A DNA stretch of 26,561 nucleotides, from IMG/VR virus record IMGVR_UViG_3300048837_002094, positions 1 through 26,561 of that record; one strand, written 5' to 3'. Every line of letters starts with the position of its first letter. Within the stretch, counting starts at the first letter, position 1. A program made the translations under genes and the position numbers. Under the pieces are notes generated by a model, which saw only the letters and a list, made by a program, of their open reading frames with translations, searched no databases and had not been told where the DNA came from. Source of the stretch: a virus. Positions 8,784 through 26,200 of this stretch are shown in pieces.

Positions 8784-10811
8784 CTAAACTTCGCCCTTGC
8801 TCTTGATGGCACCGCGTGGATCTTGCATCGCACAGCCAAAATCGTGATAGCCGCGCATCTGCACACCCAGCACGTTAAAATCAGCCTCAGCCGTTTCGAT
8901 CGTGGGAGCTTCCTGGCCGTTCAGGAATGCCACTTCAATCACTGGCAGATCGGTGGGCTCGGCCATTAGGTACCAGGCCTTGGTCGAGTTGCCCGTGTAG
9001 GTCGTGTTGGACAGGTAGCGACTGACCTCGATCCGGAACTTGCCTTGATGCGGGTTAGCTATCGGAAACTTGGCGTTGGGCGTGGTATCGCGTAGTTCCA
9101 GCGACTTAAAGAGCTGAGTGCCAATGGCTGAAAGCGGTGTTGGCACCAGCGCGATAGCTGGCATGATGCCAATGGGCTTGCCCTCAGAGTCGGTCAAATC
9201 CATGAACGCCGTCTCGGCCTTGGTCAGTCCATCGATCGACAGCGCCGTGTCAGCCCCAGTGAGAAAGTTCTTGTTGCCGACCGTGAAGAAGCTCGCGTTG
9301 TTCAGGAACGTAGTCCAGAACACGTCGTTGATCTTCAGGCCCGAACCACGGCCCAGCTTGCGCGGTACCGTGGTGATGGCTCCCAGATCGTCGTTGATGA
9401 TGTCCCGTCGGTCGATCGCCAGCAGCAAACCGTAGGTATCCGCACGGTTGCTATAGGTCTCGTTGCCGAGAGTCCCATGTTTGATCTCTCCACCGGGTGC
9501 CACCAGTTCATACTGATCTTTACCGATCAGCCGGTAGCTGTTGACGGTCTTGAAGTCACTCACATTGCGGACAGCACAGATATTGCGCCAAGTTCGCTCC
9601 ACACTGAAGAATCCTTCAAGCAGGAATTTATTGGCCACGTTCGACAAGATGCCACCAATGTCGATATTGGAAAATCCTGCGGCTTCGACTGTCCGGCCAA
9701 ATGCGAATCGCAGCACGCTTCGGCTGTCGCGAAAATTGCGTCCCGTGTAACCATTAGCCCAGGCAGCCTCGAGAAGCAGCTCCTGAAGTCCAATACCTCC
9801 ACGAAACCTCTTGCTAGCCAGTTCGAGTGTCTTTTCATCAGTTGTCTGCTGGACATCGCTGTGCCCGGCCGCTAGCAAGCAGGCCGCCTCTAGCACGGCT
9901 GAGCTAATGCCGTTCTCGGGAACATGAATGGCGGCTAGAGCTGGGCGCTGCACGCGAAGCACCTCGAGTTCAGTGCGCTGTTCTGTCCAGCCTTCACGAA
10001 TGGCTCTGGCCTCGATGTCGCTGTGACGGCCGCCACAAATGCTCCGAATCGACGCGATACGCTGCGTTTCAGCGGCTTGCTGGGCTCGGAACGCCTCCAG
10101 TTGTTGCGAAAAGTCAGCTGCTGGAGGCGCACTGGTGCTGTTAGAGATTGGCTCCACGGGTTGGGCGGCCGGAACCTCCATCTGAGGTTGACTACTAACT
10201 AGTGGCTCGTCCATGATTGGTTCTCCGGAGGCAGGTTGACTGACAGCGGCCACACTGGCGCTGGTGGCACCGTCGGCACCCAGGTCCACAAAGCTGATTT
10301 CTCCCAGTGAGCTCTTGCGCACCACGTTCAGTGGGCCTGAGTACTGCTGGCCATTCACGGTGACCTTTTGACTTTCCTTCACAAACTCAAACTCCTCGAC
10401 GCTGGCGCCAACCGAAGCCTGCCAAGGAAAGCCATTCTTGGAACTGACAACCACCTCGCGGGCGGCCGGTGTGTCGCGCGAAACCACACCGCTGGCGACC
10501 AGCAACCCGGCTTCCACACGGATCGAGTCGGTATGCCCGACACCCGAAAGTGGATCATGTCCAAAGCGAATCGGCCTGGATTGTGACGGGATACTGAGCC
10601 CAGCTAGATCGATGATCACAGGGTGTCGCCAACCTCCAATCCGCATGGGAGTACCCGTGTAGGCGACCATGCGAAAGCGCGGCAGAGCGCCAGGCGAGGA
10701 GTCATCTTTGGCTGCTTCCAGATCCAGAGTGCAGCTTGCCGTAAACAGCAAGTTGCCCTGTGTCTGCCCGCTTTCACTCGGCTCGAGTGGCTTCTTTTTC
10801 GTCAACGTCAT
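8784..10811 (-). CDS. Prohead protease - major capsid protein fusion
   Basis: This is a single 675-residue ORF. ATG at 10811 is chosen because GGAGG lies 6 nt before it; an in-frame ATG two codons earlier sits directly against the GGAGG. Residues about 1-200 resemble an HK97/U35-type prohead protease, with a His in RFGHDPLSG (about 85) and a Ser in PWQASVGAS (about 133), plus the closing EISFVDLGADG. A Pro/Ser/Gln-rich linker (about 200-265) is followed by a capsid-type region to the end, including ERTWRNICAVRNVSDFK and KLGRGSGLKINDVFW. The protease would cut the scaffold/linker during maturation, releasing the coat. The start overlaps the portal stop by 38 nt, so translation is coupled. Fused protease-coat ORFs are known in phages. 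Confidence 0.8.
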   Translation of the reverse strand: MTLTKKKPLEPSESGQTQGNLLFTASCTLDLEAAKDDSSPGALPRFRMVAYTGTPMRIGGWRHPVIIDLAGLSIPSQSRPIRFGHDPLSGVGHTDSIRVEAGLLVASGVVSRDTPAAREVVVSSKNGFPWQASVGASVEEFEFVKESQKVTVNGQQYSGPLNVVRKSSLGEISFVDLGADGATSASVAAVSQPASGEPIMDEPLVSSQPQMEVPAAQPVEPISNSTSAPPAADFSQQLEAFRAQQAAETQRIASIRSICGGRHSDIEARAIREGWTEQRTELEVLRVQRPALAAIHVPENGISSAVLEAACLLAAGHSDVQQTTDEKTLELASKRFRGGIGLQELLLEAAWANGYTGRNFRDSRSVLRFAFGRTVEAAGFSNIDIGGILSNVANKFLLEGFFSVERTWRNICAVRNVSDFKTVNSYRLIGKDQYELVAPGGEIKHGTLGNETYSNRADTYGLLLAIDRRDIINDDLGAITTVPRKLGRGSGLKINDVFWTTFLNNASFFTVGNKNFLTGADTALSIDGLTKAETAFMDLTDSEGKPIGIMPAIALVPTPLSAIGTQLFKSLELRDTTPNAKFPIANPHQGKFRIEVSRYLSNTTYTGNSTKAWYLMAEPTDLPVIEVAFLNGQEAPTIETAEADFNVLGVQMRGYHDFGCAMQDPRGAIKSKGEV

Positions 10812-12261
10812 CCGCATCCTCCGGATCTTCCATGGGGGTTAGTTGAGATGTCACCAGCCCAAGCTGGTTCATCAAAGAGAGTTCTTTGGCTCGCTGCCGT
10901 AGCTGGGTCTCCCAGTCCTGACCGCGCCGCGCGTACTCGTCGGCAAGGGTGGTCGTATGACTGGCTAAGCGAGTGGCCTGTGCATTGGCTTCTTTGGCAG
11001 GGTCGACATGTTCATGACCATCCCAGAACCATTGATGAGGCCAGCTAGCGATTGGGCCGAGGCCCGCGGGTAGAAAATCTGTTAGCAGCGCAGCCTCGTC
11101 GAACCAGGCCGATAGAAGACGGTTCAGCACCGCGCACTCCAGGTGCGACTGTTCGACACGGATGGCTTTGTAGTAGGTTTGGTGGTCTAAACGACCACTC
11201 GCATAGTTATATCCCGAACTGTTGGCTGAGGCCACGTTGTATGGCATGTTGAGACAGCGGGCTATTTCATTGAGCAGTTCATGTTTAAACTCACCGTAGC
11301 TCGTACTTGGTTGTTCACTACGCATCTGCTCCATACGCCATCCACCGGGCATGGTCAGTAGTGCGCGCTTTTCTAACTCGATGGGTTCAAATGGTTCAGC
11401 CGCATCAGCCTCTCCTCCGGCTGGAGCATCGGTATAGAGAATCCCAGCGAAGTCTGCCGCAGTCTCAGCGGCTGCCAGTACAGCCAATGTGTATCGACGT
11501 AGCTGGGCGAACAGTGGAAGAGCCGGCATGATATCCGGAATGCCGCGGGCCTGACCGGGCCTGTCCATTCGGTACCAGTGAAGAACCGAGGAAGCTGGCA
11601 CCGAGTCATGTTGGTATGGAAAGCGGAATTGTCCCTCGCCCGGATGTCCACGCAGAATGTGATACCGCTTCGGATTGCCAAACTGATCAAACTCGATACC
11701 ATCGACGGAATTATCCAGTGCAGACCCTAACTCGACGCTGGTTACTTGATCGGCCTCGATGAGCCTCAGGTCAAGTTGGATTTGCGTGGGCAGGGCTGGG
11801 TTGTTGGTAAGCAAAGCAAATGCCTCTCCATCGGTTGCTCGAGCCGTCCGCATGGTACGCAGCTTCTCTGGCAGTCGAACTGCCTTCGACCAAGCCATGA
11901 ACTCCTGTTCGATCCGCCGATTGGCTTCACTAGAGTCGGTCAGCATCTGAAGCCGTGGGCCAGTGCCGATGACATCGTTGGCCAAAGTGAGCACGATGCC
12001 TCGAGCGTAGGAGTTGTTGGCAACCTCGTACCGAGCCCGGTTTCGAAGGATTCTGCGAATCTCCGGTCGATTGGCCGCGTTGGCGGAAAGTCCATCTGCG
12101 GCCATCCAGTGGCGTGCATTGTCCGGCGTGGTCACGGCAGCGTCATAGCGGCCCAGCAGCCTCGAAAGCGAAAAAGGGTGTCGGGCAGAGCTTCCAGAGT
12201 CGAAGGATCGCTTTTCACGACCTTTTCCCTTGCTCAGTATTCCTAACAACGTTTTGAACAT
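10774..12261 (-). CDS. Phage portal protein, lambda family
   Basis: This 495-residue protein forms the dodecameric portal through which DNA is packaged. Recognisable stretches are the N-terminal DNARHWMAADGLSANAA, the RNRARYEVANNSYARGI helix, TARATDGEAFALL, the DIMPALPLFAQLRRY region and the near-C-terminal GYNYASGRLDHQTYYKAI, all typical of lambda gpB-type portals. ATG at 12261 (MFKTLLGILSKG) is preferred over a GTG at 12294, although its Shine-Dalgarno (AAGGGA) is far upstream. The C-terminus is acidic (EDPEDADDVDEKEATR) and overlaps the start of the capsid fusion. The frame appears intact, in contrast with the terminase upstream. Confidence 0.87.
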   Translation of the reverse strand: MFKTLLGILSKGKGREKRSFDSGSSARHPFSLSRLLGRYDAAVTTPDNARHWMAADGLSANAANRPEIRRILRNRARYEVANNSYARGIVLTLANDVIGTGPRLQMLTDSSEANRRIEQEFMAWSKAVRLPEKLRTMRTARATDGEAFALLTNNPALPTQIQLDLRLIEADQVTSVELGSALDNSVDGIEFDQFGNPKRYHILRGHPGEGQFRFPYQHDSVPASSVLHWYRMDRPGQARGIPDIMPALPLFAQLRRYTLAVLAAAETAADFAGILYTDAPAGGEADAAEPFEPIELEKRALLTMPGGWRMEQMRSEQPSTSYGEFKHELLNEIARCLNMPYNVASANSSGYNYASGRLDHQTYYKAIRVEQSHLECAVLNRLLSAWFDEAALLTDFLPAGLGPIASWPHQWFWDGHEHVDPAKEANAQATRLASHTTTLADEYARRGQDWETQLRQRAKELSLMNQLGLVTSQLTPMEDPEDADDVDEKEATRAE

Positions 12262-12335
12262 CCGTGAATCAATCCCTTTACTGAAACCCGACACCCGCTG
12301 AGAAGAGAAATTGAGTTACCCACAGTTGGGCTAGA

Positions 12336-12705: not shown

Positions 12706-12893
12706 GGCTTTGGGACACTCCCACAGACGACATTCGGTCATCTATCTGTAGGAATACCCGGAATGGCCGCGAAGTGACGGATTCGGCAGACGATTTTCCG
12801 AAACTTTTTTTGATTAATGACCTAAGGTGTCCTGCGTTTGAGTCATTTTGATCTCTGGTTATGTCCCAAAGTTCATTGAAACGGAGTTCAGCC

Positions 12894-13142
12894 GTGTCTC
12901 TCAACCGAGGTCGCAAAGAGAAAGAGATAGATTTCAATGCTGAAGCTCATCAGCATCAGAACCTGTTGAGAAAAATGATTGGCAAGCCCGTTCCACTGAG
13001 TCGTTCCTACACCCAAGGTGAACAACCCATATTGGTTGCGATCGAAGATGACACTGCGACAGTTCGCTTTCGCAATGGCGCTGTTCTCACGGGTGTGCCG
13101 ATTCGAGACTTGGTCGACGATGCCCCTTACTGGAGGGGGTAG
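12894..13142 (+). CDS. Small hypothetical protein (GTG start)
   Basis: On the plus strand, opposite to the phage genes, a frame of 82 residues begins with GTG at 12894. A CGGAG lies about 7 nt upstream. An in-frame ATG at 12861 lacks a ribosome binding site. The N-terminus is basic (SLNRGRKEKEIDF), then comes an amphipathic helix (HQHQNLLRKMIGKPV) and a beta-strand region (ILVAIEDDTATVRFRNGA, then VLTGVPIRDLV). It looks like a small folded beta-barrel-type protein, but I do not recognise a family. It is isolated, with no co-oriented neighbours, and could be a phage regulatory or accessory gene. Confidence 0.45.
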   Translation: MSLNRGRKEKEIDFNAEAHQHQNLLRKMIGKPVPLSRSYTQGEQPILVAIEDDTATVRFRNGAVLTGVPIRDLVDDAPYWRG

Positions 13143-13333
13143 AGTTGTATCATCGCTACATCAAGCATTGGAATTCGTGCGGGTTTAAGCGCACTGCCCA
13201 ATACAAATGACACGCCCTCATGGGCGCGAACGTCGGAATTCACGGCCTGGCGGGAATTGATCATCCACTTCGAGATGCCCGGACACCGCCACCACCGTGC
13301 AATTCTCTGGTAATCCGGCCCTTTCCTGCTCAT
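13127..13333 (-). CDS. Doubtful small ORF overlapping its upstream neighbour
   Basis: This 68-residue frame starts at ATG 13333, which overlaps the stop of the upstream ORF (13330-13584) as ATGA, the only reason to take it seriously. The sequence is Trp- and Arg-rich in its first third (RIARWWRCPGISKW) and has no recognisable fold. It ends convergently, overlapping the plus-strand ORF by 16 nt. It could be a real coupled small gene or a chance frame over decayed sequence. Confidence 0.2.
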   Translation of the reverse strand: MSRKGPDYQRIARWWRCPGISKWMINSRQAVNSDVRAHEGVSFVLGSALKPARIPMLDVAMIQLYPLQ

Positions 13334-13584
13334 TCGCTCCCACGTTTCTTTTGAAGCCTCCTTTCCTTGGCCTCAAGTATTTTTTGCAAAGCCTCGATAC
13401 GCTTCCTGCCCCATTCTGAATGGCACTTGCCGGACGAAATCAGGGACTCCGTATGGCGAATGACGCGATCTAGATATCTGATGCACGGATTGCGGAGGTG
13501 GTGGTGATGGACGTCTGAGCCAACGGGTATCTGACCTGTTCGTGCAACTTCAGAACGGCGCACTTTACTCTTTACTCGTCGCAT
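13330..13584 (-). CDS. Small basic hypothetical protein
   Basis: This 84-residue protein has a strong ribosome binding site (AAGAGG, 6 nt before ATG 13584). It is very basic: MRRVKSKVRRSEVARTG at the start, a His-rich turn (DVHHHHLRNP), and a C-terminal charged helix (RIEALQKILEAKERRLQKK). Such a composition would fit nucleic acid binding, but no defined domain is visible. It lies on the same strand as the phage genes in a region without other well-supported genes. Confidence 0.4.
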   Translation of the reverse strand: MRRVKSKVRRSEVARTGQIPVGSDVHHHHLRNPCIRYLDRVIRHTESLISSGKCHSEWGRKRIEALQKILEAKERRLQKKRGSE

Positions 13585-13646
13585 GTACGGCCTCTTAGTC
13601 GTTGGCCTGATAGCAGATAGACAGGCGACTCAACTGCCGCACATTG

Positions 13647-13928
13647 TTAAGCGAGATTAGCGATTTCATCTGCGTTAGCAATAAAGCCGACAACTTCTTC
13701 GCCTGATACTCGAGGAGAAAACGGCTCGATGGAAAAGATTTCTGCCAACTCCCATGCGACTGATTCATCGGTGCCATTCCTATATGCACAGTTCGGTTCA
13801 GCCTCGATGGTTTGCCGCACTACGGAATCGTCGGCTGCGTCGAACCACCGAACTTGCAAGTCAATCGAACCACTTGACACTCCCTCAACAAGACTGCGAT
13901 ATGCCACAATAGCAAGGAACTGGGGCAT
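13647..13928 (-). CDS. Small hypothetical protein, faintly DUF4288-like
   Basis: This 93-residue acidic protein starts MPQFLAIVAYRSLVEG. The pattern of two leading beta strands followed by YRNGTDESVAWELAEIFSI and EEVVGFIANADEI resembles small DUF4288-type proteins, in which a conserved aromatic/Trp-Glu segment follows a helix. The similarity is weak and from memory. There is no good Shine-Dalgarno before ATG 13928. It is not obviously linked to phage functions and may be host cargo or a remnant. Confidence 0.4.
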   Translation of the reverse strand: MPQFLAIVAYRSLVEGVSSGSIDLQVRWFDAADDSVVRQTIEAEPNCAYRNGTDESVAWELAEIFSIEPFSPRVSGEEVVGFIANADEIANLA

Positions 13929-14362
13929 TAAGTGTAAGCCTAATTTGGTTCTAGAATGATCGATGCTGAACTTATCGGCGACAACTTTGCAGCCTGTCGG
14001 AACTTGTCGATTGTTGTAAGATGTATTGTAACCATCGGTTCCTTTGTCGTAAAGTTATTTCTGGTGTAATAGGCTGCTTGGCTGTTTCCGCCTAGCGCCC
14101 ATCGGACCGGTGGGCCAGTCCGTTGGCTGGCCTGTTGAAGTCGCGACGCAAAGGTTCGGGACATAAGTGCAAACCACTGGGGCGTCGTCTAGCAAGGTTC
14201 ATGTTCCTCCGGGCCGTGAATCGGTCTTCGACTTGAATCGCGAAGGTCCTCGCACGCTCAGGACGAACCGTCATTTAGCGTTTTGGCTGCGAGCCTAAAG
14301 CCGCGTTGCACGACATTCACGTTCAGACAAATGCCATCCTAAGCACGGTTGGGATTTGTAGA
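13929..14362. other. 434-bp stretch without a convincing gene
   Basis: Between the small hypothetical ORF and the terminase remnant I see only frames rich in Arg, Pro and Cys with no ribosome binding sites (for example the minus-strand frames at 13940-14164 and 14092-14274). No tRNA-like cloverleaf, strong terminator or repeat array was found. It may be eroded phage or intergenic host sequence. Confidence 0.4.
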
Positions 14363-15475
14363 TCACTTTCTTTTTTTGTACTGCAAATCCTTAAAACTTA
14401 GGCGGCCAGGCTTCAACGTTACAGTGGCGTCTGTTCCGGGAAGCACACACCCGAGCATGGAAGCTCCAACAGTTGCTCCAACCAGGCAGTCGAACCAGTG
14501 GTTGTCAGGCTGCTCGGGTCGCTGTTTCCATTCGTCCACGCTTCGGCCGCGGGCCTGCGTCTTGATGAAGTATTCCGAGGTCAGGTGCTCCGCCAACAGC
14601 CGGTGGGTCTCTGGGTTAGCACCAAATATCGACAGGCAACCACGATCCCCCATGGCCACACGCAGTCGGGCATTGATAAACGACTTCCACCAGTTGGTGT
14701 CGTAAACAACGTGGCGTACGGCTCGTTTTCCATGCACATTGGGGATTCGCCAGTTGAGCCCAACTCGATCCCCTGGCCGGCGACGGTACTCGCTGAACGG
14801 TAGGCTTGAGGCTCCAACGAACCGACCGTGGCTGGGCATGATCACAGCGGCGTGCCTTGACTGCCGACAAAACTGGTAGACCACGTCGGTTGATTGCCCC
14901 CAATTGGCGTCAATCAGACAGCGCCCGATCCGCATTGCAGCTCCATCGTCGCGCTGCCACTCTCGGTCCAGTAGTTTCGAAGTCAAACACTCAAGGCCAG
15001 CGTAGATTGATCCCTCGAGTCCTGTACCCGATGCTGTAGAACTCAGCGTCTGACGTGTCTCACGCAGAGTGAAGTATGGCCGATGCTGATCCGGATAACA
15101 ACCATAGTCGATGACATAGCCAGTGAAATCATCCTCCCAGGCAGCGACAAGATAGAACAACAGCTTCTGCTGGACGTCGATGAACGCGGTCAAGTGGTTC
15201 GCTCCAATGGAGACTAGACCACGCTCAATGCGGTTTACCTTGGTCGCTACCTCTTCCGCACCCAGCATACCATCGGTCACGGTCTCTTCTATCAGTGGCT
15301 CATTCTGGTATTCAGCAAAGAAGGCCGCTTTGTCCTGCAACTTGAGATTCATCGCATGCTGGATGGCCGAAAGTTCGTCATAGTTGAATCGCTCCTGCCA
15401 AGCAACGACAGCGCCCTCGTCCATTGCCGGCTGGTTCTCACGATAGAACTCGGTGGCCGCCTGATGACCCAACAG
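14363..15475 (-). pseudogene. Phage terminase large subunit (GpA-like), C-terminal half only
   Basis: About 365 residues of a large terminase are present, starting near AATEFYRENQPAMDEGA and running to the natural C-terminus. The nuclease half is well preserved: ELSAIQHAMNLKL, FFAEYQNEPL, LTAFIDVQQKLLFYLVAAW, CLIDANWGQSTDVVYQF and DNHWFDCLVGA, with candidate catalytic Asp residues in FIDVQ and LIDANWG. The whole N-terminal ATPase (Walker A/B) is missing. The reading frame stays open upstream to 15898, but those 135 or so residues are the antisense of a plus-strand segment and do not look like terminase. The large terminase normally translocates DNA into the prohead and cuts it, so this copy could not package. 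The break lies between about 15460 and 15500. A mis-joined assembly is an alternative. Confidence 0.8.
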
Positions 15476-15658
15476 AACTGGCCGTTCGAGAACCGAATCT
15501 GCGGCGTGACCAGCGGCCGCGAAATGAATGAAGCCGATGAAGATGACTCGGATGACGACGACCAAGACGTCGCCCAAGACAACACGATCTACATCGTTGA
15601 AGGTGGGCAGATTTGCTACGGCAGCAAGCGGGCTTGGGAGAACTACCGCGACGGCTAA
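15476..15658 (+). pseudogene. 3' end of an unidentified plus-strand gene
   Basis: The plus frame ending at TAA 15656-15658 has a protein-like C-terminus: a very acidic stretch (EMNEADEDDSDDDDQD) followed by DNTIYIVEGGQICYGSKRAW and a short tail. The frame continues upstream into the antisense of the terminase, where it stops looking like protein, so this is probably only the last ~50-60 codons. An internal ATG at 15524 has no ribosome binding site. I do not recognise the family. Downstream (15661-15799) is a normal-looking intergenic gap with an inverted repeat GGGGAAAA (15678-15685) / TTTTCCCC (15710-15717). Confidence 0.45.
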
Positions 15659-15799
15659 ATGGAAGCCCCAAAGGTATGGGGAAAAGAATTCCGAGTAATT
15701 TCGCGCGTTTTTTCCCCTTCGGCTTGCAAGCACCAAAAGTTCATGGCTCATGTGTGTTAATGCCACGCATTTCATAACCCCCGAACCGGAGATACCAAA

Positions 15800-15865
15800 A
15801 TGACCACCCACGACCTGGACCTGACGATCACCAAAATTTCCAACCGCAATCGAAACGTCGGTGGC
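15800..15865 (+). pseudogene. 5' end of an unidentified plus-strand gene, cut after about 20 codons
   Basis: ATG at 15800 has a GGAG Shine-Dalgarno 8 nt upstream and encodes MTTHDLDLTITKISNRNRNV. After this the plus frame becomes the antisense of the helicase-like remnant. This is a gene start joined to foreign sequence. With the preceding gene end it forms a roughly 390-bp segment in opposite orientation to everything around it. The product is not identified. Confidence 0.45.
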
Positions 15866-15879
15866 TCTTGGGTGCAAGG

Positions 15880-16425
15880 CAAGATCTTCTTCCGCCATTC
15901 ATCTTCATTCTGCTTGGCAGGAATCGACTCGGACGAAACGTTGCCCACTGCTATCTTCGCTAGCACGGTGATCAGCAACGACTTGCCGGTCCCTTGCATT
16001 GGAGCGTCGACAATAGCCAGCGGCACATGTCCCTTGATGACCGGACGCATCAGTATCGAAAACAAAATCGCCAGTGCATTGGCGCGGCTTGCATCATCAA
16101 CGAACGGGAACTCATCGATTACCTGCAGGAGAATATCAACGCACGCGCGGACTTCTTCGCCGCAAGGATACTCTGGGACTGGTCTGAGGTTGAGCGAAGG
16201 GTCAGGACAATACATCAACCTCGATGTGGAATCGTAGCCAGGCGTTGTGCAAATGGTTCCATCGCCTCGCAAGATGGGAGCGCGAGCCACGCCGGCAAGT
16301 GGCGGGAGGTCCCAGTCTGTTTGTGCTAGAATATTCTCGGCAAGCGCTTTAGGAGGGTTGGTGCCGACAGGAATGTAGCCACCATCCGATTTGCGCATGG
16401 TGAAGAAATTAGCGACTTCGGTGAA
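15880..16425 (-). pseudogene. Phage primase/helicase-like ATPase, internal fragment
   Basis: Roughly 180 residues of a helicase-type ATPase remain. The segment TEVANFFTMRKSDGG, the QTDWDLPPLAGVARAPIL block (reading on to a GYDSTSRLMYCP turn) and the ATPase core RANALAILFSILMRPVIKGH followed by AIVDAPMQGTGKSLL (Walker A) are of the kind found C-terminal to phage/plasmid primase domains. Upstream, the frame meets a TAG just before FTEVAN. Downstream, the similarity ends after NEDEWRKKI, before the Walker B and sensor motifs, and the frame runs on to 15772 as nonsense. The fragment lacks both the primase part and the second half of the ATPase, so it is non-functional. An ATG-initiated ORF (16398-15772) exists, but it starts inside the domain. 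Confidence 0.65.
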
Positions 16426-16969
16426 CTACATTGCGGGCTCGGTCCGGCAGACTGGGCACCGTCTTGGTGTACTCGCCAGTCCGCGTTTCGATCGTTCTGT
16501 CGACCGCATGTGAAATGAGAATCAGGCCGTAAGGCAGACTGGCCAGTCTGGTCAGTACGCGATGCCACTCGTTTTTGACCAGCGCCCAACCCTTGCCGTG
16601 AGCCATGTCGCCTTCATACTCAATACCATGCTTGGCACACACGTGCTCGGAGCACATTTTGAAGGCGTTGTCGACTGTATCGATGACCACTGTTTGGAAA
16701 TTGTGATCACCCTTGGCAATCAACTTGCATGCTTCGAGGAATGCCTCCCAGGAATAGGTAGGTACCTTAAAGACTTCCAGGTGATTGAGGCCTGGTTCAC
16801 ATTCCAGAAAGATTGCGGATGGAAATCTTGAAGCCATGGTACTTTTTCCCAACTTGGGAGCCGAGTACAGCAGGATGGTTTGTTTGCCGAGTTCGGTAAC
16901 AGGTTTTGATGGTTCCGTGGGCAAAATTAGTGGGGAGTCCGGGGTCGGGAGCCTGGAGTTAGAATTCAT
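16409..16969 (-). CDS. Phage AAA_24 (Sak4-like) ATPase, C-terminally truncated with repeat-derived N-terminus
   Basis: This 186-residue P-loop protein has Walker A SAPKLGKST (residues 36-44), Walker B VVIDT (94-98) and LILISHAVDRTIETRTG near residue 155, typical of the AAA_24 family. That family includes Sak4-type phage RecA-like recombinases that work with single-strand binding protein in replication and recombination. Two oddities stand out. Residues 2-14 (NSNSRLPTPDSPL) are encoded by the heptameric repeat array flanking the neighbouring four-helix gene, so the native start was replaced. The frame ends abruptly after PSLPDRARN with VVHRSR, where family members continue for tens of residues; the next bases already belong to the helicase-like remnant. 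It is probably defective. It follows the PD-(D/E)XK nuclease in the same direction. Confidence 0.7.
   Translation of the reverse strand: MNSNSRLPTPDSPLILPTEPSKPVTELGKQTILLYSAPKLGKSTMASRFPSAIFLECEPGLNHLEVFKVPTYSWEAFLEACKLIAKGDHNFQTVVIDTVDNAFKMCSEHVCAKHGIEYEGDMAHGKGWALVKNEWHRVLTRLASLPYGLILISHAVDRTIETRTGEYTKTVPSLPDRARNVVHRSR
16932..16959. repeat. Left heptameric repeat array, inverted partner of 17380-17411
   Basis: The array has degenerate 7-bp units of AGTCNGG type (AGTCCGG at 16936, GGTCGGG at 16943, AGCCTGG at 16950). The 28-bp stretch is the reverse complement of 17384-17411 at 24 of 28 positions. The arrays resemble the heptanucleotide STRR sequences known from cyanobacteria. They bracket the plus-strand four-helix-bundle gene and form codons 4-13 or so of the AAA_24 gene on the minus strand. 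Confidence 0.8.
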
Positions 16970-17013
16970 CAGTAGTGTTAAGTCCTTTGTCTGGAATCAT
17001 GAGGAAGATTTTT

Positions 17014-17367
17014 ATGAGAGATCACACAAAGCTCAGGGCGTTTGAATTGGCGGACCAATTGGCTTTGTTTGTTTACGAATTCACTCGACAGTTTCCGAAG
17101 GAGGAGCTCTTTGGTTTGACCTCGCAAATGCGTCGTGCCGCCGTGTCTGTGCCAAGCAACATCGTTGAGGGAGCGGCGCGCCAGTCAGAGCTGGAATTTG
17201 TACGTTTTCTTGAAATCGCTTACGGTTCGCTCCGAGAGCTTGAGTACCAGGTCTCGCTTGCATCGCGTTTAGGATTTTTAGATGTCGAGCCATCAACAAA
17301 ACTCCAGGAATTAAGTGCTGAGTCTGCAAAAGTACTAAATGGGCTAATTCGTTCATTCAGACGCTAA
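17014..17367 (+). CDS. Four-helix bundle protein (23S rRNA intervening-sequence protein family)
   Basis: This 117-residue protein starts at ATG 17014 (MRDHTKLRAFELADQL) with GAGGA 8 nt upstream. It shows the TIGR02436 signature: LFGLTSQMRRAAVSVPSN, followed by IVEGAARQSELEFVRFLEIA and a long C-terminal helix LRELEYQVSLASRLGF. Members form homopentameric four-helix bundles. Some are encoded within 23S rRNA intervening sequences, and a relative (Avd) assists reverse transcriptase in diversity-generating retroelements, but free-standing copies are common and of unknown function. Here no rRNA or reverse transcriptase is nearby. It is the only well-preserved plus-strand gene inside the phage early genes, and inverted heptamer arrays flank it. 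I infer a small inserted unit; the mechanism is unknown. Confidence 0.88.
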   Translation: MRDHTKLRAFELADQLALFVYEFTRQFPKEELFGLTSQMRRAAVSVPSNIVEGAARQSELEFVRFLEIAYGSLRELEYQVSLASRLGFLDVEPSTKLQELSAESAKVLNGLIRSFRR

Positions 17368-18425
17368 AACGGCTCTTCTCCCGACTCCAGACTCGCGACT
17401 CCGGACTGCCCTAGTTCTTCGTTCGGCAGAGCAATCTCATACAAATTGCCAGCCACGTTGGGATTGAATCCTGACTGGCAGTAAGGCAGATATTCACAGG
17501 GTCGCTGAAATAAAAAGCAGTTGGATGTATTAAGCAGCCACTTTCCGCGCCGCCTGGCGTCCAGATACTGCTGGGTGATCTCCCAGACTTCGTCCTGCAA
17601 CATGGCCAGGCGATCTTCCGAGAGATAGATGTACTCGCGATGGAAGGCTTCAGGCCGGGAATACCACTCTAACAACCGGCTCTGATACTCCTCGTCAGTC
17701 TCCGGTAACTGTCGCTTGGCCGTTGACTTGCCGCTCTTGTTTTTGGCTGCCAGTTCCGCTTTGCGTGCCTCGTATTCGGCCTGCGTCTCGCCTTTGCCCT
17801 GCTTCAGGCGGCTTTTTAGCAGCACGTTGTAGATCACACCAACAATCGGGTAGCCCAATTCCCGCAGGTAGTAGCAGTAGAGGGCGATCTGCGTGTCGGT
17901 CCACAGCTTGTCCAGATAGTTGGCATCAACAGTCGAGGCAGTTTTATGCTCGAGCAGATACAAGCCGTCGTGGCAGCGCACTATGGCGTCCACCTTGCCT
18001 GCCATTCGAAATGTTTGGCTCAGCCTCCCAGTCTCCGGATTGCGGATTTCACCGTTAAACTCCTTCTCAACTTCGACTATCTCAAAATCTTCAGTCTCAT
18101 AACGCTCGGCATAACCTCGCATCATGGCTGTGGCCAAATGCCAGGCAGCCAGCTGCTGGGAGTCGCCAGCGCGATTTCCAAATGCCTGGTCGATAGCGTT
18201 TAGCACCGTCTCAAGTCGAGCCATCCCAACCTGTGAGCGGTACCACAGCTCAATTGCACTGTGAACAACACTGCCAAACGACAGGACCTCCGGCCGCTCT
18301 CGCGGTCTCAGCTGGTCAAGATACCGATTCTTGTACTTGCGCGGACAGTTACGAAAGGTGTTGAGCGCCGAGTACGTCAGCAGCGTCTTATCGGTCGCGT
18401 CAACAGGTGTGGAAATATGTGACAT
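17364..18425 (-). CDS. PD-(D/E)XK superfamily nuclease (Cas4/RecB-like)
   Basis: This 353-residue protein has the features of RecB-family exonucleases. It starts with SALNTFRNCPRKYKNRYL (Cys27), has His55 in VVHSAIE, GKVDAI (Asp146), LLEHKTA (Glu159, Lys161) and a Q-motif DTQIALYCYYL (Gln179). Cys303, Cys310 and Cys316 near the C-terminus, together with Cys27, could hold a 4Fe-4S cluster as in Cas4 and AddB. In phages such nucleases process DNA ends for recombination and replication, fitting the neighbouring Sak4-like ATPase. The last ~14 residues (GQSGVASLESGEEPF) are encoded by the right heptamer array, so the native C-terminus was probably replaced. The 3' end overlaps the convergent four-helix gene by 4 nt. 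No adjacent cas genes or CRISPR array were seen. Confidence 0.8.
   Translation of the reverse strand: MSHISTPVDATDKTLLTYSALNTFRNCPRKYKNRYLDQLRPRERPEVLSFGSVVHSAIELWYRSQVGMARLETVLNAIDQAFGNRAGDSQQLAAWHLATAMMRGYAERYETEDFEIVEVEKEFNGEIRNPETGRLSQTFRMAGKVDAIVRCHDGLYLLEHKTASTVDANYLDKLWTDTQIALYCYYLRELGYPIVGVIYNVLLKSRLKQGKGETQAEYEARKAELAAKNKSGKSTAKRQLPETDEEYQSRLLEWYSRPEAFHREYIYLSEDRLAMLQDEVWEITQQYLDARRRGKWLLNTSNCFLFQRPCEYLPYCQSGFNPNVAGNLYEIALPNEELGQSGVASLESGEEPF
17380..17411. repeat. Right heptameric repeat array, inverted partner of 16932-16959
   Basis: Four consecutive 7-bp units NNNGACT (CCCGACT 17380, CCAGACT 17387, CGCGACT 17394, CCGGACT 17401) are followed by GCCC. The array is the inverted counterpart of the left array and lies just beyond the stop of the four-helix gene. 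On the minus strand it encodes the end of the nuclease ORF. Confidence 0.85.
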
Positions 18426-18958: not shown

Positions 18959-19045
18959 ATACTTGGTTCCTGTGGTTTGAATGCTTAGACTGAAAAATAC
19001 GCTTCTCTACCTGTTGGAATACCCGGTCCACAGCTGAGTTGACGG

Positions 19046-19893: not shown

Positions 19894-19939
19894 AATCTTC
19901 CACTTAGCAGCCCGTTACACTTACTGGAGGGCGACAGCG

Positions 19940-20038
19940 TTGAAAGACAACTCACCAACGACCACGCCGTGGCAAATTGATCCGACCGACTTTCCAGGGG
20001 GTATTTGGAACCAGTGGGCTTATGTCAAAGTTCAGTAA
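19940..20038 (+). pseudogene. Nitroreductase remnant, left copy (N-terminus joined to internal piece)
   Basis: A TTG at 19940 with GGAGG 9 nt upstream opens a 32-codon frame whose PWQIDPTDFPGG is like the start of Acg-type nitroreductases. At 19994 the sequence switches to 37 bp that match the right-hand remnant, but in a different frame. Read one base on, it gives QGVFGTSGLMSKFSK against QGVFGTSWLMSKIGK on the right. I read this as an internal deletion plus frameshift. The frame stops at 20036-20038. Confidence 0.45.
19994..20030 (+). repeat. 37-bp direct repeat, left copy
   Basis: The 37 bp are identical to 26287-26323 at 34 positions (core GGGGTATTTGGAACCAGT). Both copies have the same orientation and lie about 6.29 kb apart. 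They bracket the ECF sigma / kinase / exported-protein block and lie inside nitroreductase-like remnants. Confidence 0.9.
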
Positions 20039-20065
20039 AAGCCCCGAGTTCTTGGTAGAAACGCA

Positions 20066-20123
20066 AAGACCCGCTGGGATGAGCCAGCGGGTCTTGAACG
20101 GGATGGTCACGTTGCGGTGACCA
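20066..20123. terminator. Two adjacent stem-loops, possible terminator for the minus-strand operon
   Basis: The first is a perfect 12-bp stem, AAGACCCGCTGG (20066-20077) with CCAGCGGGTCTT (20084-20095) and a 6-nt loop. The second is TGGTCAC (20104-20110) with GTGACCA (20117-20123), 7 bp and a 6-nt loop. On the minus strand the first stem is followed by TTGCGTTTC, only moderately T-rich. It lies about 190 nt downstream of the exported-protein gene stop, so a terminator is plausible but not certain. Confidence 0.45.
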
Positions 20124-20285
20124 ACTAGATGGAGGCGGTTTCTTGGATTTGCTACGAGGATTGTCCAGCGAAACGCAATTCGAGAAAATGCCACCACACT
20201 TCTAACGATTTGCAACAGCTAGGCCACGGAATCCAAATGCTTCCTTCTTTTAACTTGCTGTTGGATCCTTTGGAGTTCATGAAAG

Positions 20286-20822
20286 CTATCGCAGAAATAT
20301 CGCCTTGACGATGACAACTGTGTCAGTCCCTCCGGAACTCGGGACGTGCCATTTCCCATCGTTGGCAAAGCCACCGCAATTTCCGCTAGTGCAGACCTTA
20401 ATACGATACACCTTCTGTGAGAGAATGAACGGACTTTCAAGCCCAGTGAACGCGATTGTTCCGGCAGTGGGAGGTTCAGGATGCTCGGCGTCGATTTTCC
20501 AATAGATCGTCCCGCTATCAGCTTGTCCGCCGGACCGAATGTGTCTTGTGGGGCGACTTTGCCACAGAGTGCCGCGCAGTTCGGGAGCGAGGCCATATTC
20601 GGCAAACTCGACTTGGTCCTGGGCATTCGATGGTCCCGCCACAACCACGGCAATCGACGTAGGACTGTTGAAGTCCGGCGGCACTTCGCCCTGTGGAACC
20701 CAGTACATAAACGTCCGTTCCTCGAATCCGGACGATTGCGCCATTGAGGGGCTTGCCTCCAGCAACAAACCGAACGTCAATAAACCACACAAAGCAAGCG
20801 TTTTAGCACCAAAGTAATTCAT
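20286..20822 (-). CDS. Small exported hypothetical protein
   Basis: ATG at 20822 has AAGGTG 7 nt upstream and begins a clear signal peptide (MNYFGAKTLALCGLLTFGLL through ASPSMAQ, cleavage after about residue 28). An in-frame ATG at 20858 would bury the signal behind a hydrophilic stretch. The mature part (about 150 residues) is beta-rich with motifs PTSIAVVVAGPSNAQDQV and YRIKVCTSGNCGG (a possible disulfide), and ends DTVVIVKAIFLR. It follows the HAF-type exported protein gene by 136 nt on the same strand. Function unknown; no homologous family recognised. Confidence 0.6.
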   Translation of the reverse strand: MNYFGAKTLALCGLLTFGLLLEASPSMAQSSGFEERTFMYWVPQGEVPPDFNSPTSIAVVVAGPSNAQDQVEFAEYGLAPELRGTLWQSRPTRHIRSGGQADSGTIYWKIDAEHPEPPTAGTIAFTGLESPFILSQKVYRIKVCTSGNCGGFANDGKWHVPSSGGTDTVVIVKAIFLR

Positions 20823-20958
20823 GGAAGCACCTTTTGAATTCAGATTCTGCTCGCGCATTTGCGGTTTTGGTTCCGTGCAGTGCGCAAGCCTGTTCTGCCC
20901 GGAAAACGAAAACGGATATCAGTAGGTAGGATAAGTCTCCTAGCGACGAACTAGTCGC

Positions 20959-22122
20959 TTATTTCGGCAACGCAAGGAATGCCCGCGTCATTCCGCTTGT
21001 GCTGTGCCAACCGTAACCAACAATTTCTTGCTCGTCGTTGATGGCTGCTGCATACTTGAGGTAAGTGAACGGCGAATTGCTTTTCGGCAGGAAGCGGTCC
21101 AGTGACTGCATGGTGCTGGTGGGACTTGACCAAAAAATAGCCTGTTCGCGACTAGTCTTTTTGTCTCTTCCGAACCCGACAACGAATCGTGTCGCATTGA
21201 TTCCCGTGGGAATGCCTCTCTGCAAAAACGTATTTGCGTCCCACGAAAGGATTGTCTTCGTGGCGCCATTCCAAATCACTGCGTTTGCCACGTCGTGTCC
21301 ACACACGGCTCCATTTCGATTGACTCCCCATGCTTCACCCGCGGTATCCAAGACGATTGGAGTTGCATCCGATTCCAAGTCGCCGTCAGCCATGAGCAAT
21401 ATCCCCCAAGCCACGGGCACGCCGTTCGACATCCCGATCGCGAAAGCTCGTCCTTCCGCATTGACCTCGGAAATGGCATGAATCACATCGTAGTTTGACA
21501 TGTCACCATAAGTGGGTAGCGATGGCAAGATAATAGGCAACGTCGCTTGACCCTCATAGACTCGCCAGGCAAGGGCATGAGTCTCTGTCTGCCCATCCAG
21601 ATCCCGAGAGGAGCCGCCGACTACCATGCCCGAAGAATTCAACTTTGTGGCGAAGCTGAAGCTCTCTTCCGGCATCCCAATCAATTCAATCGGGTTGCTC
21701 AACGCGTCATGCCAATGGAATCCGACGGTTTGGCCAGTTAGTTGCTGGCCTTGCCCAACAATGGCACCTCCGGCCGATACTCCATTCGCCTGGCTGCCTC
21801 CGTAGTCTGTCAACAGATACCGAGAAATTTGGGCCTGACTACCCGATCCACTCAAGAGCCAACATGCGGCCCGAGAATTGCCCGACGCGGAGGAGTCAAC
21901 CGAGCCGGCTATCCAACGTCTGCCATCCGGTGTTTTCTGAGAGATGTCCGACGCGAATGAAGTCCCTGAATCCAATGCGACGATATTGAAACCGACGGAC
22001 GTCGATCCGCCTCCGCCCCTATTGGGCTTTTGAGCACTGGCTTCATTGCACAGCAGACTTATGATCATTGCCGTAAGCACAAACCAATGTTTGAATGTAA
22101 TAGTATGGCGAAGGGATGTCAT
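20959..22122 (-). CDS. Exported HAF-repeat-like protein
   Basis: This 387-residue protein has a signal peptide (residues 1-30, HWFVLTAMIISLLCNEASA) and a mature part made of repeats of about 40-60 residues in the style INxxGxVVGxSxxxxGxxHAFLW. Examples are KLNSSGMVVGGSSRDLDGQT, GVSAGGAIVGQGQQL, GVNRNGAVCGHDV and the last INDEQEIVGYGWHSTSG followed by MTRAFLAL. HAF-type extracellular repeats form beta-propeller-like structures of unknown function and are common in planctomycetes. AAAGGAAG lies 5 nt before ATG 22122. The gene follows the kinase gene by 93 nt, so it may belong to the same transcript and be part of the envelope output of the kinase/sigma pair (inference). Confidence 0.7.
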   Translation of the reverse strand: MTSLRHTITFKHWFVLTAMIISLLCNEASAQKPNRGGGGSTSVGFNIVALDSGTSFASDISQKTPDGRRWIAGSVDSSASGNSRAACWLLSGSGSQAQISRYLLTDYGGSQANGVSAGGAIVGQGQQLTGQTVGFHWHDALSNPIELIGMPEESFSFATKLNSSGMVVGGSSRDLDGQTETHALAWRVYEGQATLPIILPSLPTYGDMSNYDVIHAISEVNAEGRAFAIGMSNGVPVAWGILLMADGDLESDATPIVLDTAGEAWGVNRNGAVCGHDVANAVIWNGATKTILSWDANTFLQRGIPTGINATRFVVGFGRDKKTSREQAIFWSSPTSTMQSLDRFLPKSNSPFTYLKYAAAINDEQEIVGYGWHSTSGMTRAFLALPK

Positions 22123-22215
22123 TTACTTCCTTTCCACTAATCATTGAGTTTGAGATTGAGCTACTTCTGGGAGTCCTCGCCACTGAAGGCACTCGCTCGC
22201 ATAAGAGTTCTGTTA

Positions 22216-25200
22216 CTAGCCACCAGAATTAACCTCGTCCTTTTCAGAAAGGCGTGGTTCGTCGATTTCTTCTCCGCCATCGGCGTAGGATTTCCGAATT
22301 TTACGCCAATGCTCCAATTCGTTGTCATTGCCGGAGGATTCATAGAATTGAGTTATCCTGTCACAGGCTTGCTGAAGAATACGCTTCCTGGATCGCTCAG
22401 GGATTTTGTGTTCTTGTCTCATTATCCCGTGGTAACTCTGAAGCAAGATGGGTTCCGCTTCCTCGAGCTTTCCCTGTCCCCTAAGGCTTTCGCCGAGATG
22501 ACTCAGGACATTGAAGTATCCCCACTCGTCGGGCATTTGCTCCAGTCGGATCGCCACCGCCTCACGAGCTGCTGCTTCCGCCTCAGCCCATCGTGAAAGT
22601 CGATTTAGACTGTTTGCGACGATCAATAAAAAGACAGCCCGCTGTCGCTTATCCAACGCTTCGCTCGGCGAATGCAGCCTTTTTGAATCTAAACCGATTC
22701 GTCCTAGGTCCAAGGCTTTTTTGTGATCACCCAGGAGTTCACAGGTCAACGCTAGTTCTTCGAGGCTATCCAGAGTATGACGATGATCATTGCCGAGTCG
22801 TTTCTTACGCAACATCCAGGATTGCTCGTATAGAGACTCGGCTTTTTGTAGATCGCCTACTTCAACATAAACCCACGCCAAGTTGTACATGCTTGCGGTT
22901 GCAGCCGGGTGTTCGGGGCCGAGCTGAGATTTTCTATGTTCCAGTACGTACTCGTGAAGTCCGATCGATTTGCGATATTCGCCGATCCTCGAGTAGGCCG
23001 TAGCTAAGCAGTACATACTCATAAGGGTTTCAGGATGGTTTGGGCCACGCGTCTCCTTCTTTAGCTCTAGTGTTTGCTCAAAAAGCGGGATCGCTTTGAC
23101 CACATCGTTGTTGTCGTAGTAAGCCATTCCCAAGTTATTCATGCAGGTAAGCGTATTCGGATGTTTTGGGCCGAGTACGGCGGTCATTAACTCCAGCGAT
23201 TCCTCGAAGAGCCGAAGAGCTTTTGATAACTCGCCTGTCTCGCGGTATGCCATTGCCAAATTGTTCATGCTCAACAGCGTGTTGGGGTGGCTAGCTCCTT
23301 CCGCAGCCTTTGTTTGTTCTAGATTCTGTTCGAGCAATGGCACAGCCAAGTTCAATTTATCTGCGTCGATATATGCTGTTGCCAAATTGTGAATGCTGTC
23401 GAGTGTGGCGGGATGCTGCAGTCCGAGGCTTGATCTTTTGAGCTCCACCGTCTGCTCAAGTATCAGAATGGCTTTGTCGTATTGGCCAGAAGCTTGGTAC
23501 GCCAATGCCAGGCGGTTCATGCTTTTTAGCATGTCAGGATGCTCGGGGCCGAGAGTTGATTTCCCAAGCTCTAGTGTTCGCTCGAGAAGCGACAAGGCCT
23601 TATTGTTCTGGTTGGTTCCCATATACGCCGCTGCCAGATTGTACATGGTCGCGAGTGTTGAAGGATGTTTGGGGCCAAAAGCTTGATCGAGATGCCGTTG
23701 AACCTTTTCAAAAAGCTCGGCGGCCTCTGTATAACGACCGATGCTGAGTAGGGCATTAGCCAATGTCGCTTGAACTGCAGCACGGATTCGCGGTTGGTCT
23801 GCGAATCGCTCCTCGACCTTCAACAAAGCACGGTCGAGCAGCGTGCTCAGTTTCAGATCGGGATCCGGCTTTAGGTTGGCGTCGAGTTGGGCTTCGGCAC
23901 CCGCCAGCCCCAACAAGTCATTTTGCAGGAAGTCTTGTACCGCCTTGGCAATCGCCGCCTCTTCCACCGCCTTCTTTTCCGCTTCCTCTGCTGCTGCTCT
24001 CTGAGCTGCCTCTGCTTCTTTCGCCTCTCGTTCGGCCGCAGCTGCGGACTCGGCAGTCCGGCGCTGTTCCGCTTCCCGCTCGGCACTCGCGATAGCCCGC
24101 TCTTCCGCACGCGTCGCACGGATCGCTTGCCAGGTCGTGCCAATCAGGCCGATGACCAGAGCCGCGGCTACTGCTGCCGTTGCTCCCAACAAGGCTTTGT
24201 TCTTCCTGGCGAACTTGCGGAAGCGATATCCAGCGCTTGGCGGACAAGCCAACACCGCTTCGTCGTTGAGATACCGCTGGATGTCCATCGCAAACCCGTT
24301 GGCCGTCTCATACCGCCGATTGCGGTCTTTCTCCAGCGCCTTCATCACGATCCAGTCGAGCTCGCCGCGTACCAGCGTCGATAATCGCGCGGGCTCAGTT
24401 TTGCGATTGGCGGCTATGCTCGGGAGAGTTTGGCTGCTGCTGAGCTTGGTGCTCGGTCTGGGTGGCTCCTCCTCGCGGATGATCCGCAACAATTCATCCA
24501 ACGCTGCTTCGCGCATCCGCTTCTTGTCAAACGGCGTGCTCCCGGTCAGTAGCTCATACAGCAGGACTCCCAGCGAATAAACGTCGCTGCGGGTGTCGAT
24601 GTCCAGCTGATTGACCCGGGCCTGTTCGGGACTCATGTATTCCAGCGTCCCGATGATCTGTCCCAGCCCCGTAAACATCGTCTTTTCGGTCAGCGGCTGA
24701 TGGACCGCTTTGGCCACGCCAAAGTCGATCACTTTGGCCACGGGACGACCATCGTATTCGGCGACCAGCACGTTCGAGGGCTTGATGTCCCGGTGGATGA
24801 TTCCTTTCTGATGCGCATGCTGGATGGCATGGCACACGGGAAGGAATAACTCCAGCCGTTCGCGCGGGGTGAGATGGTGTTCGTCGCAGTACAGGGTGAC
24901 GGGCTGTCCCTTGACTAGTTCCATCACGAAGTAAGGCCGGCCGCTGTCGGTGGTTCCGGCATCGAGGACCTTGGCGATGTTGGGGTGGTCCATCATCGAC
25001 AGGGCCTGGCGCTCAGCTTCGAAGCGGGCCAGGACCTGGCGGCTATCCATACCAGGCTTTATCAACTTGAGGGCCACCCGCCGCCGCACAGGTTCGTGCT
25101 GCTCGGCCATCCAGACGCTGCCCATTCCCCCTTCCCCAACCTGCTGCAGCAGTTTGTAGGGACCGATCTGGGTTCCGGGCATCTCGGAGACGGGCATGTC

Positions 25201-25407
25201 GACGGTGGGATCCGGTTGATTCGCAATGGCCGGCCTTTCTAAAAAGCTGTCCGGCTCTGCGTGAGCGCGGAGAAGGGCTCGCACGCGAACAACAAGCTCT
25301 TGGTCACCGCCACTTGCTTCGACCACACGATCTTCCCACTCCTCCGGCGGTACTTTGCCGACGAGTTCAACGAAGATATCTTTGGCTTTTTGAGATTGGC
25401 TATTCAT
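22216..25407 (-). CDS. PknB-type serine/threonine protein kinase with TM segment and TPR domain
   Basis: This 1063-residue protein starts at ATG 25407 with GGAG 7-10 nt upstream; a TTG at 25419 is the longer alternative. An N-terminal region (1-80) is followed by a complete kinase domain: GEGGMGSV (about 91-98), the lysine of VALKLIKPG, the HRDIKPSN loop (about 205-212), DFG in VIDFGVAK (about 228-230) and GTLEYMSPEQA. One transmembrane helix (about 405-425, LLGATAAVAAALVIGLIGTT) leads to an Ala/Glu coiled coil (about 430-495). At least nine TPR-type repeats with LGPEHPxTLxSMxNLAxAY consensus follow (about 545-960). The kinase is cytoplasmic by topology only if the TPR half is outside, an unusual but common planctomycete design. 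Genes of this type often follow an ECF sigma gene, as here (gap 68 nt). Confidence 0.9.
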   Translation of the reverse strand: MNSQSQKAKDIFVELVGKVPPEEWEDRVVEASGGDQELVVRVRALLRAHAEPDSFLERPAIANQPDPTVDMPVSEMPGTQIGPYKLLQQVGEGGMGSVWMAEQHEPVRRRVALKLIKPGMDSRQVLARFEAERQALSMMDHPNIAKVLDAGTTDSGRPYFVMELVKGQPVTLYCDEHHLTPRERLELFLPVCHAIQHAHQKGIIHRDIKPSNVLVAEYDGRPVAKVIDFGVAKAVHQPLTEKTMFTGLGQIIGTLEYMSPEQARVNQLDIDTRSDVYSLGVLLYELLTGSTPFDKKRMREAALDELLRIIREEEPPRPSTKLSSSQTLPSIAANRKTEPARLSTLVRGELDWIVMKALEKDRNRRYETANGFAMDIQRYLNDEAVLACPPSAGYRFRKFARKNKALLGATAAVAAALVIGLIGTTWQAIRATRAEERAIASAEREAEQRRTAESAAAAEREAKEAEAAQRAAAEEAEKKAVEEAAIAKAVQDFLQNDLLGLAGAEAQLDANLKPDPDLKLSTLLDRALLKVEERFADQPRIRAAVQATLANALLSIGRYTEAAELFEKVQRHLDQAFGPKHPSTLATMYNLAAAYMGTNQNNKALSLLERTLELGKSTLGPEHPDMLKSMNRLALAYQASGQYDKAILILEQTVELKRSSLGLQHPATLDSIHNLATAYIDADKLNLAVPLLEQNLEQTKAAEGASHPNTLLSMNNLAMAYRETGELSKALRLFEESLELMTAVLGPKHPNTLTCMNNLGMAYYDNNDVVKAIPLFEQTLELKKETRGPNHPETLMSMYCLATAYSRIGEYRKSIGLHEYVLEHRKSQLGPEHPAATASMYNLAWVYVEVGDLQKAESLYEQSWMLRKKRLGNDHRHTLDSLEELALTCELLGDHKKALDLGRIGLDSKRLHSPSEALDKRQRAVFLLIVANSLNRLSRWAEAEAAAREAVAIRLEQMPDEWGYFNVLSHLGESLRGQGKLEEAEPILLQSYHGIMRQEHKIPERSRKRILQQACDRITQFYESSGNDNELEHWRKIRKSYADGGEEIDEPRLSEKDEVNSGG

Positions 25408-25475
25408 GTCGCACTCCAATGAACAATGCGACCTTTCCGGCGGATCGTCCGGAAAAATCTAGAAATTTTGAATTT

Positions 25476-26033
25476 CTATTCAGCGCCGATTTCGCAACGT
25501 AGCCATGCGCGGGCGTAAGCCCATTGCTCGTAAGCACTTGTGCGAGAAATTCCAAGCGCTTCGGCCGCTTGGGTCATGGAGAAACCGGCGAAATAACGCA
25601 GCTTGACGAGTTGGGCGGCCTGAGGATCTTCAACAGCGAGTTTATTCAACGCCCCATCAATGGACAGCAGCTTATCGTGGCTCGTCGTGATGGCGATGTC
25701 CGCGACGCCAAGCTCGACCCGCTGAAAATCGCCGCCGTGTTTTACCCTCGCTTTCCGGCGAGCTTGTTCGACTAAGATGCGACGCATCGCCTCCGCTGCG
25801 GCCGCAAAGAAATGGCCCCGCGAGTCCCAGTGCTGCGCCTTTTCTACGTCCACCAAACGGATGTAGGCGTCGTGGACAAGCGCTGTAGCTTGCAATATCT
25901 GCCCTGGTTTCTCTTGGGCCAGTCTTGCAGCGGCCAGCTTGCGAAGTTCGTCGTACACCAGAGGCAATAACTGCTCAGCTGCTGAAGGATCGCCTTCCTC
26001 GATTTGCGAGAGAATGGAGGTCACGTCGGTCAT
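25476..26033 (-). CDS. ECF sigma factor paired with the kinase (planctomycete/acidobacterial type)
   Basis: This 185-residue protein starts at ATG 26033 (MTDVTSILSQIEEGDP), the usual N-terminus of this subfamily (TIGR02999-like). A longer frame to 26132 adds unrelated residues. Region 2 includes LPLVYDELRKLAAARLAQEK, TALVHDAYIRLVD and the following WDSRGHFFAAAAEAMRRILV. Region 4 has VKLRYFAGFSMTQAAEALGI, then SRTSAYEQWAYARAWL. In planctomycetes such ECF factors are frequently encoded next to PknB-like kinases and are thought to be regulated by phosphorylation instead of a classic anti-sigma factor. The kinase gene follows 68 nt downstream. The Shine-Dalgarno is weak (AAGTGATG). Confidence 0.88.
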   Translation of the reverse strand: MTDVTSILSQIEEGDPSAAEQLLPLVYDELRKLAAARLAQEKPGQILQATALVHDAYIRLVDVEKAQHWDSRGHFFAAAAEAMRRILVEQARRKARVKHGGDFQRVELGVADIAITTSHDKLLSIDGALNKLAVEDPQAAQLVKLRYFAGFSMTQAAEALGISRTSAYEQWAYARAWLRCEIGAE

Positions 26034-26200
26034 AAACATCACTTGCAAATGAAGCATCGGCCTTGAGAGAGGATTTTCAATGGGATGCCGACGCCAATCG
26101 TGATTATACGATTCCTGCAGATTCAATTCCACATGCCGATCGCAGGCCGGCTAAGCAATTGATGAGTTGATTTATAATGGCATCACCGTGAAATTACTCA

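Follow-up and report, generated by a model that had tools for sequence, protein, structure and literature searches.

The window analysed here, which is the whole stretch of DNA at its full length, corresponds to a linear IMG/VR record, 26,561 bases long, whose phage genes, read from right to left on the minus strand, run in the order exonuclease, AAA_24, primase/helicase piece, plus-strand gene ends, terminase nuclease half, portal, protease-capsid fusion, and tape measure. Between 14363 and 16969, AAA_24, the primase/helicase piece, two plus-strand small-gene pieces, and a terminase that lacks the ATPase half abut one another directly. The features are listed below in order of position.

185-2173, minus strand: tape measure protein, 662 aa (phrog_8462, E 1.7e-42)
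8784-10817, minus strand: protease-major capsid fusion, 677 aa (PF25209, E 1.4e-41; phrog_4523, E 8.8e-67)
10774-12294, minus strand: portal protein, 506 aa (PF05136, E 2.4e-58)
12785-14362, no strand assigned: extra sequence of about 1.6 kb, lower in GC and with small ORFs only, between the terminase end and a conserved element before the structural genes
14363-15460, minus strand: terminase large subunit, nuclease half only (PF20454, E 7.9e-24)
15460-15461: junction C, lacking 4.35 kb that the intact relative G005 has; no shared bases seen
15461-15658, plus strand: 3' end only of one small gene, cut at junction C; stop codon at 15656-15658
15742-15757, plus strand: 16-bp repeat CATGGCTCATGTGTGT, one copy, before the ATG at 15800
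15800-15886, plus strand: start only of another small gene (ATG at 15800), cut at junction B
15883-15886: junction B, lacking 6.9 kb that G005 has; GAT in common, 3-4 bp
15883-16424, minus strand: internal piece of a primase/helicase gene (phrog_29234, phrog_10537, phrog_19930)
16409-16969, minus strand: AAA_24/Sak4-like gene, truncated at its 3' end, from 16424 downwards (PF13479, E 3.6e-39)
16424-16425: junction A, lacking 5.2 kb that G005 has; 0-1 bp in common
16975-17367, plus strand: inserted 23S_rRNA_IVP four-helix-bundle gene (PF05635, E 4e-34)
17364-18425, minus strand: PDDEXK exonuclease, 353 aa, apparently whole (PF12705, E 3.5e-25; phrog_1218, E 8.6e-51)
19906-26561, no strand assigned: probable host DNA with the 3' end of a plus-strand frame, family-less ORFs, a Ser/Thr kinase-TPR gene, and an ECF sigma factor gene

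Outside the damaged block, the phage part of the window largely follows that of intact Planctomycetota phages such as IMG/VR records 3300048835_000959 (G005) and 3300042294_005859 (G002), with which it has in common the gene set (exonuclease, AAA_24, primase, small-gene array, GpA-type terminase, portal, and capsid), its order, and its strands. The exonuclease shares 70-78% DNA identity with most relatives. Unlike the window, intact relatives lack the PF05635 insertion between exonuclease and AAA_24 and leave a gap of only about 60 bp at that site (median 61 bp in the 54 relative loci with both neighbours), and G005 and G002 lack the 1.6 kb insert, whose origin was sought and not found, as it matches nothing in relatives except for one 93-aa ORF. 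The conserved element beside this insert, CCGGGTATTCCTACAGATAGA (window 12736-12761), is located about 65-90 bp past the terminase stop in relatives and is perhaps a candidate late promoter; a weak second match (19006-19026, 21 bp, E 0.038) lies near a phage sigma-factor gene. The initial annotation had described an apparently intact portal-capsid-tail set, and the portal, the protease-capsid fusion, and the tape measure are indeed recognisable, although the window ends inside the tail genes, such that the description is confirmed for part of the set. Among these tail genes, two neighbours (3315-3755 and 3768-4223) belong to one family with about 72% DNA identity, the first of them matching a major tail protein PHROG; because both align to one and the same locus in relatives, G002 among them, they represent a tandem duplication.

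IMG/VR scans yielded 9 loci for the primase piece, at least 80 for the terminase half, and 48 for AAA_24. In DNA comparisons, the window pieces (16425 and up, 15883-16424, 15458-15886, and 14455-15460) align with relatives as far as the junctions and stop there, and their counterparts in G005 (39719 and up, 33976-34517, 26269-27039, and 20910-21915) are separated by about 5.2, 6.9, and 4.35 kb, a sum of about 16.5 kb that is nil in the window. Homology to G005 switches sharply at all three junctions, in keeping with their earlier description as abrupt. When the loci of the window and of a near-identical record are omitted and several loci per contig are counted separately, the matches to AAA_24 and primase lie on the same strand in 13 of 13 loci at 2.7-7.2 kb from each other, those to primase and the plus-strand segment in 7 of 7 (spacing 5.2-6.9 kb), those to the segment and terminase in 42 of 42 (2.0-6.3 kb), and those to AAA_24 and terminase in 3 of 3 (16.0-17.8 kb, versus less than 1 kb in the window). 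As every pair of pieces is thus same-stranded and far apart in relatives, deletion rather than scrambling accounts for the arrangement, and the proposal of a scrambled block is not supported: the pieces are collinear with relatives, with order and strands kept. Judged from these alignments, the block is best described as the outcome of three large collinear deletions (about 16.5 kb relative to G005) and one small deletion between repeats. The proposed end-to-end joining of truncated genes holds, except that five genes are truncated and not four.

The individual pieces bear this out. The AAA_24 ORF comprises 186 aa in the window versus 260 aa in G005, its match to phrog_124 (E 3.6e-36) reaches position 197 of 382, and homology to relatives stops at 16423-16425, where an abrupt end near 16420 had been reported. 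The primase/helicase piece, with 95% amino-acid identity to loci L004 and L009, aligns with an 866-aa G005 protein over about residues 398-578 and accordingly lacks both ends, as had been noted. The segment between 15461 and 15886 does contain the end of one plus-strand gene and the start of another, as first described; nevertheless, it is not inverted, for it is on the plus strand in relatives too. The 3' end at 15461-15658 is 76% identical in amino acids to a plus-strand frame in G005, and the start at 15800 is 79% identical to the same plus-strand frame there, which encodes 104 aa; the segment at 15.46-15.89 kb is, by this comparison, a remnant of a small-gene array that is likewise plus-stranded in relatives. 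An inversion of this segment was considered and is ruled out by its strand, which is the same in 42 of 42 loci relative to terminase and in 7 of 7 relative to primase. Finally, the terminase half (up to 85-88% amino-acid identity to its nearest relatives among the matches listed) aligns from about residue 408 on with the 773-aa terminase of G005, confirming the absence of the ATPase half; the listed 511-aa terminase ORF (14363-15898) simply continues into foreign sequence. Among the 79 terminase loci tested in relatives, 7 left too little sequence upstream; in the other 72, the upstream half is open in 70, and two (L069 and L080) are shorter. A search for the missing halves covered the 26,561-base record, in which the block occurs once and terminase gives a single match. 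Set against G005, the window is without the C-terminal 75 or so residues of AAA_24; an ERCC4-type nuclease, a RecD2-like helicase, and a ParB-N/N6_N4 methylase; primase residues of about 1-397 and 579-866 (NrS-1-type domain; primase PHROGs); most of the small-gene array; and terminase residues of about 1-408.

The joins left by the three large deletions, with little or no shared sequence, fit those of end joining. The small loss inside the plus-strand segment is of another kind: the two conserved parts are 102 bp apart in the window and at least 424 bp apart in 30 of 30 loci, and the G005 counterpart of the interval is one small gene between two repeat copies. By eye, the left side of the single repeat in the window is like the first G005 copy and its right side like the second, which fits a predicted recombination between the two repeats.

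The pieces also carry information on the age of the breaks. No stops occur in the truncated pieces, and most of the codons that differ from the nearest relative do so synonymously (synonymous to non-synonymous 82:9 for primase, 73:10 for AAA_24, and 155:45 for terminase, compared with 97:34 for the exonuclease and 210:104 for the portal), which implies that these genes were under selection until recently. Invariant columns were violated at none of 45 (AAA_24) and none of 35 (terminase) positions, a weak test given that relatives omitted singly in turn also have a median of 0, and the primase piece, with only 5 distinct relatives, had no testable invariant column. Long-standing decay is ruled out by the absence of stops and of raised amino-acid change, and the breaks appear, from these codon comparisons, to be young relative to the divergence from known relatives; the damage is so either recent or, less likely, artefactual.

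The second of these options is that the joins arose in the library or the assembly, with an intact phage or co-occurring strains linked wrongly, and it is given a minor though appreciable share of the probability. The total lack of decay is what would be expected of genes that are whole in nature, and the 0-4 bp shared at the junctions could be taken in the same sense; however, a 4-bp overlap is far below what assemblers require, and none of the joins alters order or strands. No parent contigs were seen, and no other locus compared exceeds about 90% DNA identity to the pieces. Each of the three junction patterns matches one other IMG/VR record only, 3300048838_001675 (G001), which differs from the window by 1 mismatch over 15,940 bp, through all three junctions. 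Two contigs so alike should stem from two assemblies, in which case three shared chance joins would be unlikely, and the chimeric assembly initially listed among the possibilities is made less likely by this second record. The two contigs part at window position 1816 (L220, 15940), where G001 lacks 1.3 kb of the tape measure (window 509-1815); its tape measure remains in frame, at 226 aa versus 662 aa in the window, and identity beyond this point is 91%. A wrong join may be present at 1816 in at least one of the two contigs, or these may be real recombinants; in favour of an artefact, the shift of the second record to a 91% strain indicates that joins in such material are not all safe.

To the right, phage homology is over by 19905 in all relatives compared. 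The stretch beyond, with matches to PF00069/TPR and PF07638, is probably host DNA, a call made by gene type only. Among 296 genomes from a single planctomycete order, 50 contain homologues of its ECF sigma factor at E<=1e-60, and 2 have weak matches to a 387-aa ORF (20959-22122). Kinase and sigma-factor matches were also found in three phage loci (L063, L119, and L129), and these genes may be carried by the phage itself. The breakpoint at 19.9 kb may be an att site or could be one more deletion end; several relatives continue with further shared genes there, and MmeI-like, ORC-CDC6-like, and PRTase-CE proteins follow at a greater distance in G005. Att sites and a left flank were not found in the window, nor was an integrase among the 20 window ORFs scanned. 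As to the host, 75 of 80 portal loci among the matches listed belong to Planctomycetota by record title, the other five being titled Fimbriimonadales, Caulobacterales (2), Acidobacteria, and Lentisphaerae.

Taken with the observed collinearity, the junctions, and their recurrence in a second record, the flank makes a recently inactivated (cryptic) planctomycete prophage, shortened by deletions without change of order or direction, the probable explanation. Of the three origins originally put forward, a prophage decaying through deletions is the one that best accommodates the kept order and strands, the roughly 16.5 kb missing, and the host-like genes beyond 19.9 kb. Under such a scenario, a planctomycete phage would have integrated into the host chromosome, three large deletions and one small deletion would then have removed most of the replication-packaging region, and the half-genes would have been left dead; because the terminase motor and primase are missing, the element would be capable of neither self-replication nor self-packaging. 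Homology to intact phages and broken essential genes (terminase, primase, and AAA_24), both features of cryptic prophages, were found. Incomplete prophages are reported to lose replication, packaging, and release genes preferentially (PMC7744054), and the window has in common with cryptic prophages the lost replication and packaging genes, the remaining structural genes, and, probably, attached host-type DNA (PMC7744054). Inactivation by such deletions is, in kind, ordinary for prophages; nevertheless, the presence of three large, clean deletions in what is now 1 kb of sequence, free of point decay, sets the window apart from cryptic prophages and exceeds what gradual decay would lead one to expect, a point against the prophage reading.

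Gene transfer agents and domesticated prophages likewise retain structural genes without replication genes, and a domesticated particle producer, whose structural genes are kept under selection while replication and packaging genes are shed, had also been suggested. The portal, capsid, and tape measure genes are open, and the portal departs at just 1 of 118 invariant columns; yet a cluster kept for its function should appear across strains, and conservation of the arrangement over many strains, as in gene transfer agents, was not found, each junction being confined to the window and one other IMG/VR record, nearly identical to it. A working packaging motor was likewise not found in the cluster: the terminase ATPase half is absent from the 26.6 kb record, and the filling of particles would require a helper. 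The broken pieces, moreover, were recently selected, which dates the loss as recent. With no positive evidence in its favour, this suggestion is very improbable. Equally slim are the prospects of a defective-interfering or satellite-like genome that keeps its packaging sites and borrows the rest from intact relatives. Such relatives are common (at least 80 terminase loci) and short internal pieces remain, but genomes of this type usually keep origins and lose structural genes, the reverse of what is present here, and the host-type DNA attached at 19.9 kb points to an integrated copy. A small element devoid of most structural genes, typical of phage satellites, is not what the window contains, since portal, capsid, and tape measure are all there. 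It is conceivable, at very long odds, that the three clean, strand-preserving deletions came from one event or are repeatedly generated, yielding a structural-only satellite newly derived from a planctomycete phage and carried by a helper from its abundant intact relatives.

The cryptic prophage interpretation replaces a scrambled genome with plain collinear deletion and would add a freshly inactivated prophage to a phylum with little-studied phages. The undamaged relatives are of greater interest, as they reveal the lost region, including an array of repeat-headed small genes with a hammerhead ribozyme. In relatives, the interval between primase and terminase that is lost from the window contains small plus-strand genes, each headed by the conserved 16-mer CATGGCTCATGTGTGT, which forms part of a longer, semi-conserved repeat. 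In G005, the matching array has 7 copies of the 16-mer (L227, 3483-6909); of 243 collected loci, 80 contain it in exact form, with a maximum of 11 copies in one. An ATG frame of at least 40 codons begins within 200 bp of the 16-mer in all 166 distinct contexts (median distance 45 bp, quartiles 43-49), which, being drawn from related phages, are not independent of one another, compared with 61% of random positions in the same loci (median 61 bp). The repeat may serve as a repeated phage promoter or operator, and genes may be gained and lost at it; it may also resemble the repeated start-associated sequences of mycobacteriophages.

An Rfam search detected no hammerhead ribozyme in the window, whereas a type II hammerhead ribozyme (RF02276) was detected in the array region of 9 of 9 relative loci searched. 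In G005 it lies on the plus strand (L227, 7267-7334), directly after the gene whose start survives in the window, and the others are in L054, L174, L221, L229, L016, L022, L036, and L038. Elsewhere in G005, at 45666-56668 (L228, 5666-16668), MmeI-like, ORC-CDC6-like, PRTase-CE, and methylase genes adjoin the phage genes in what looks like a defence cluster.
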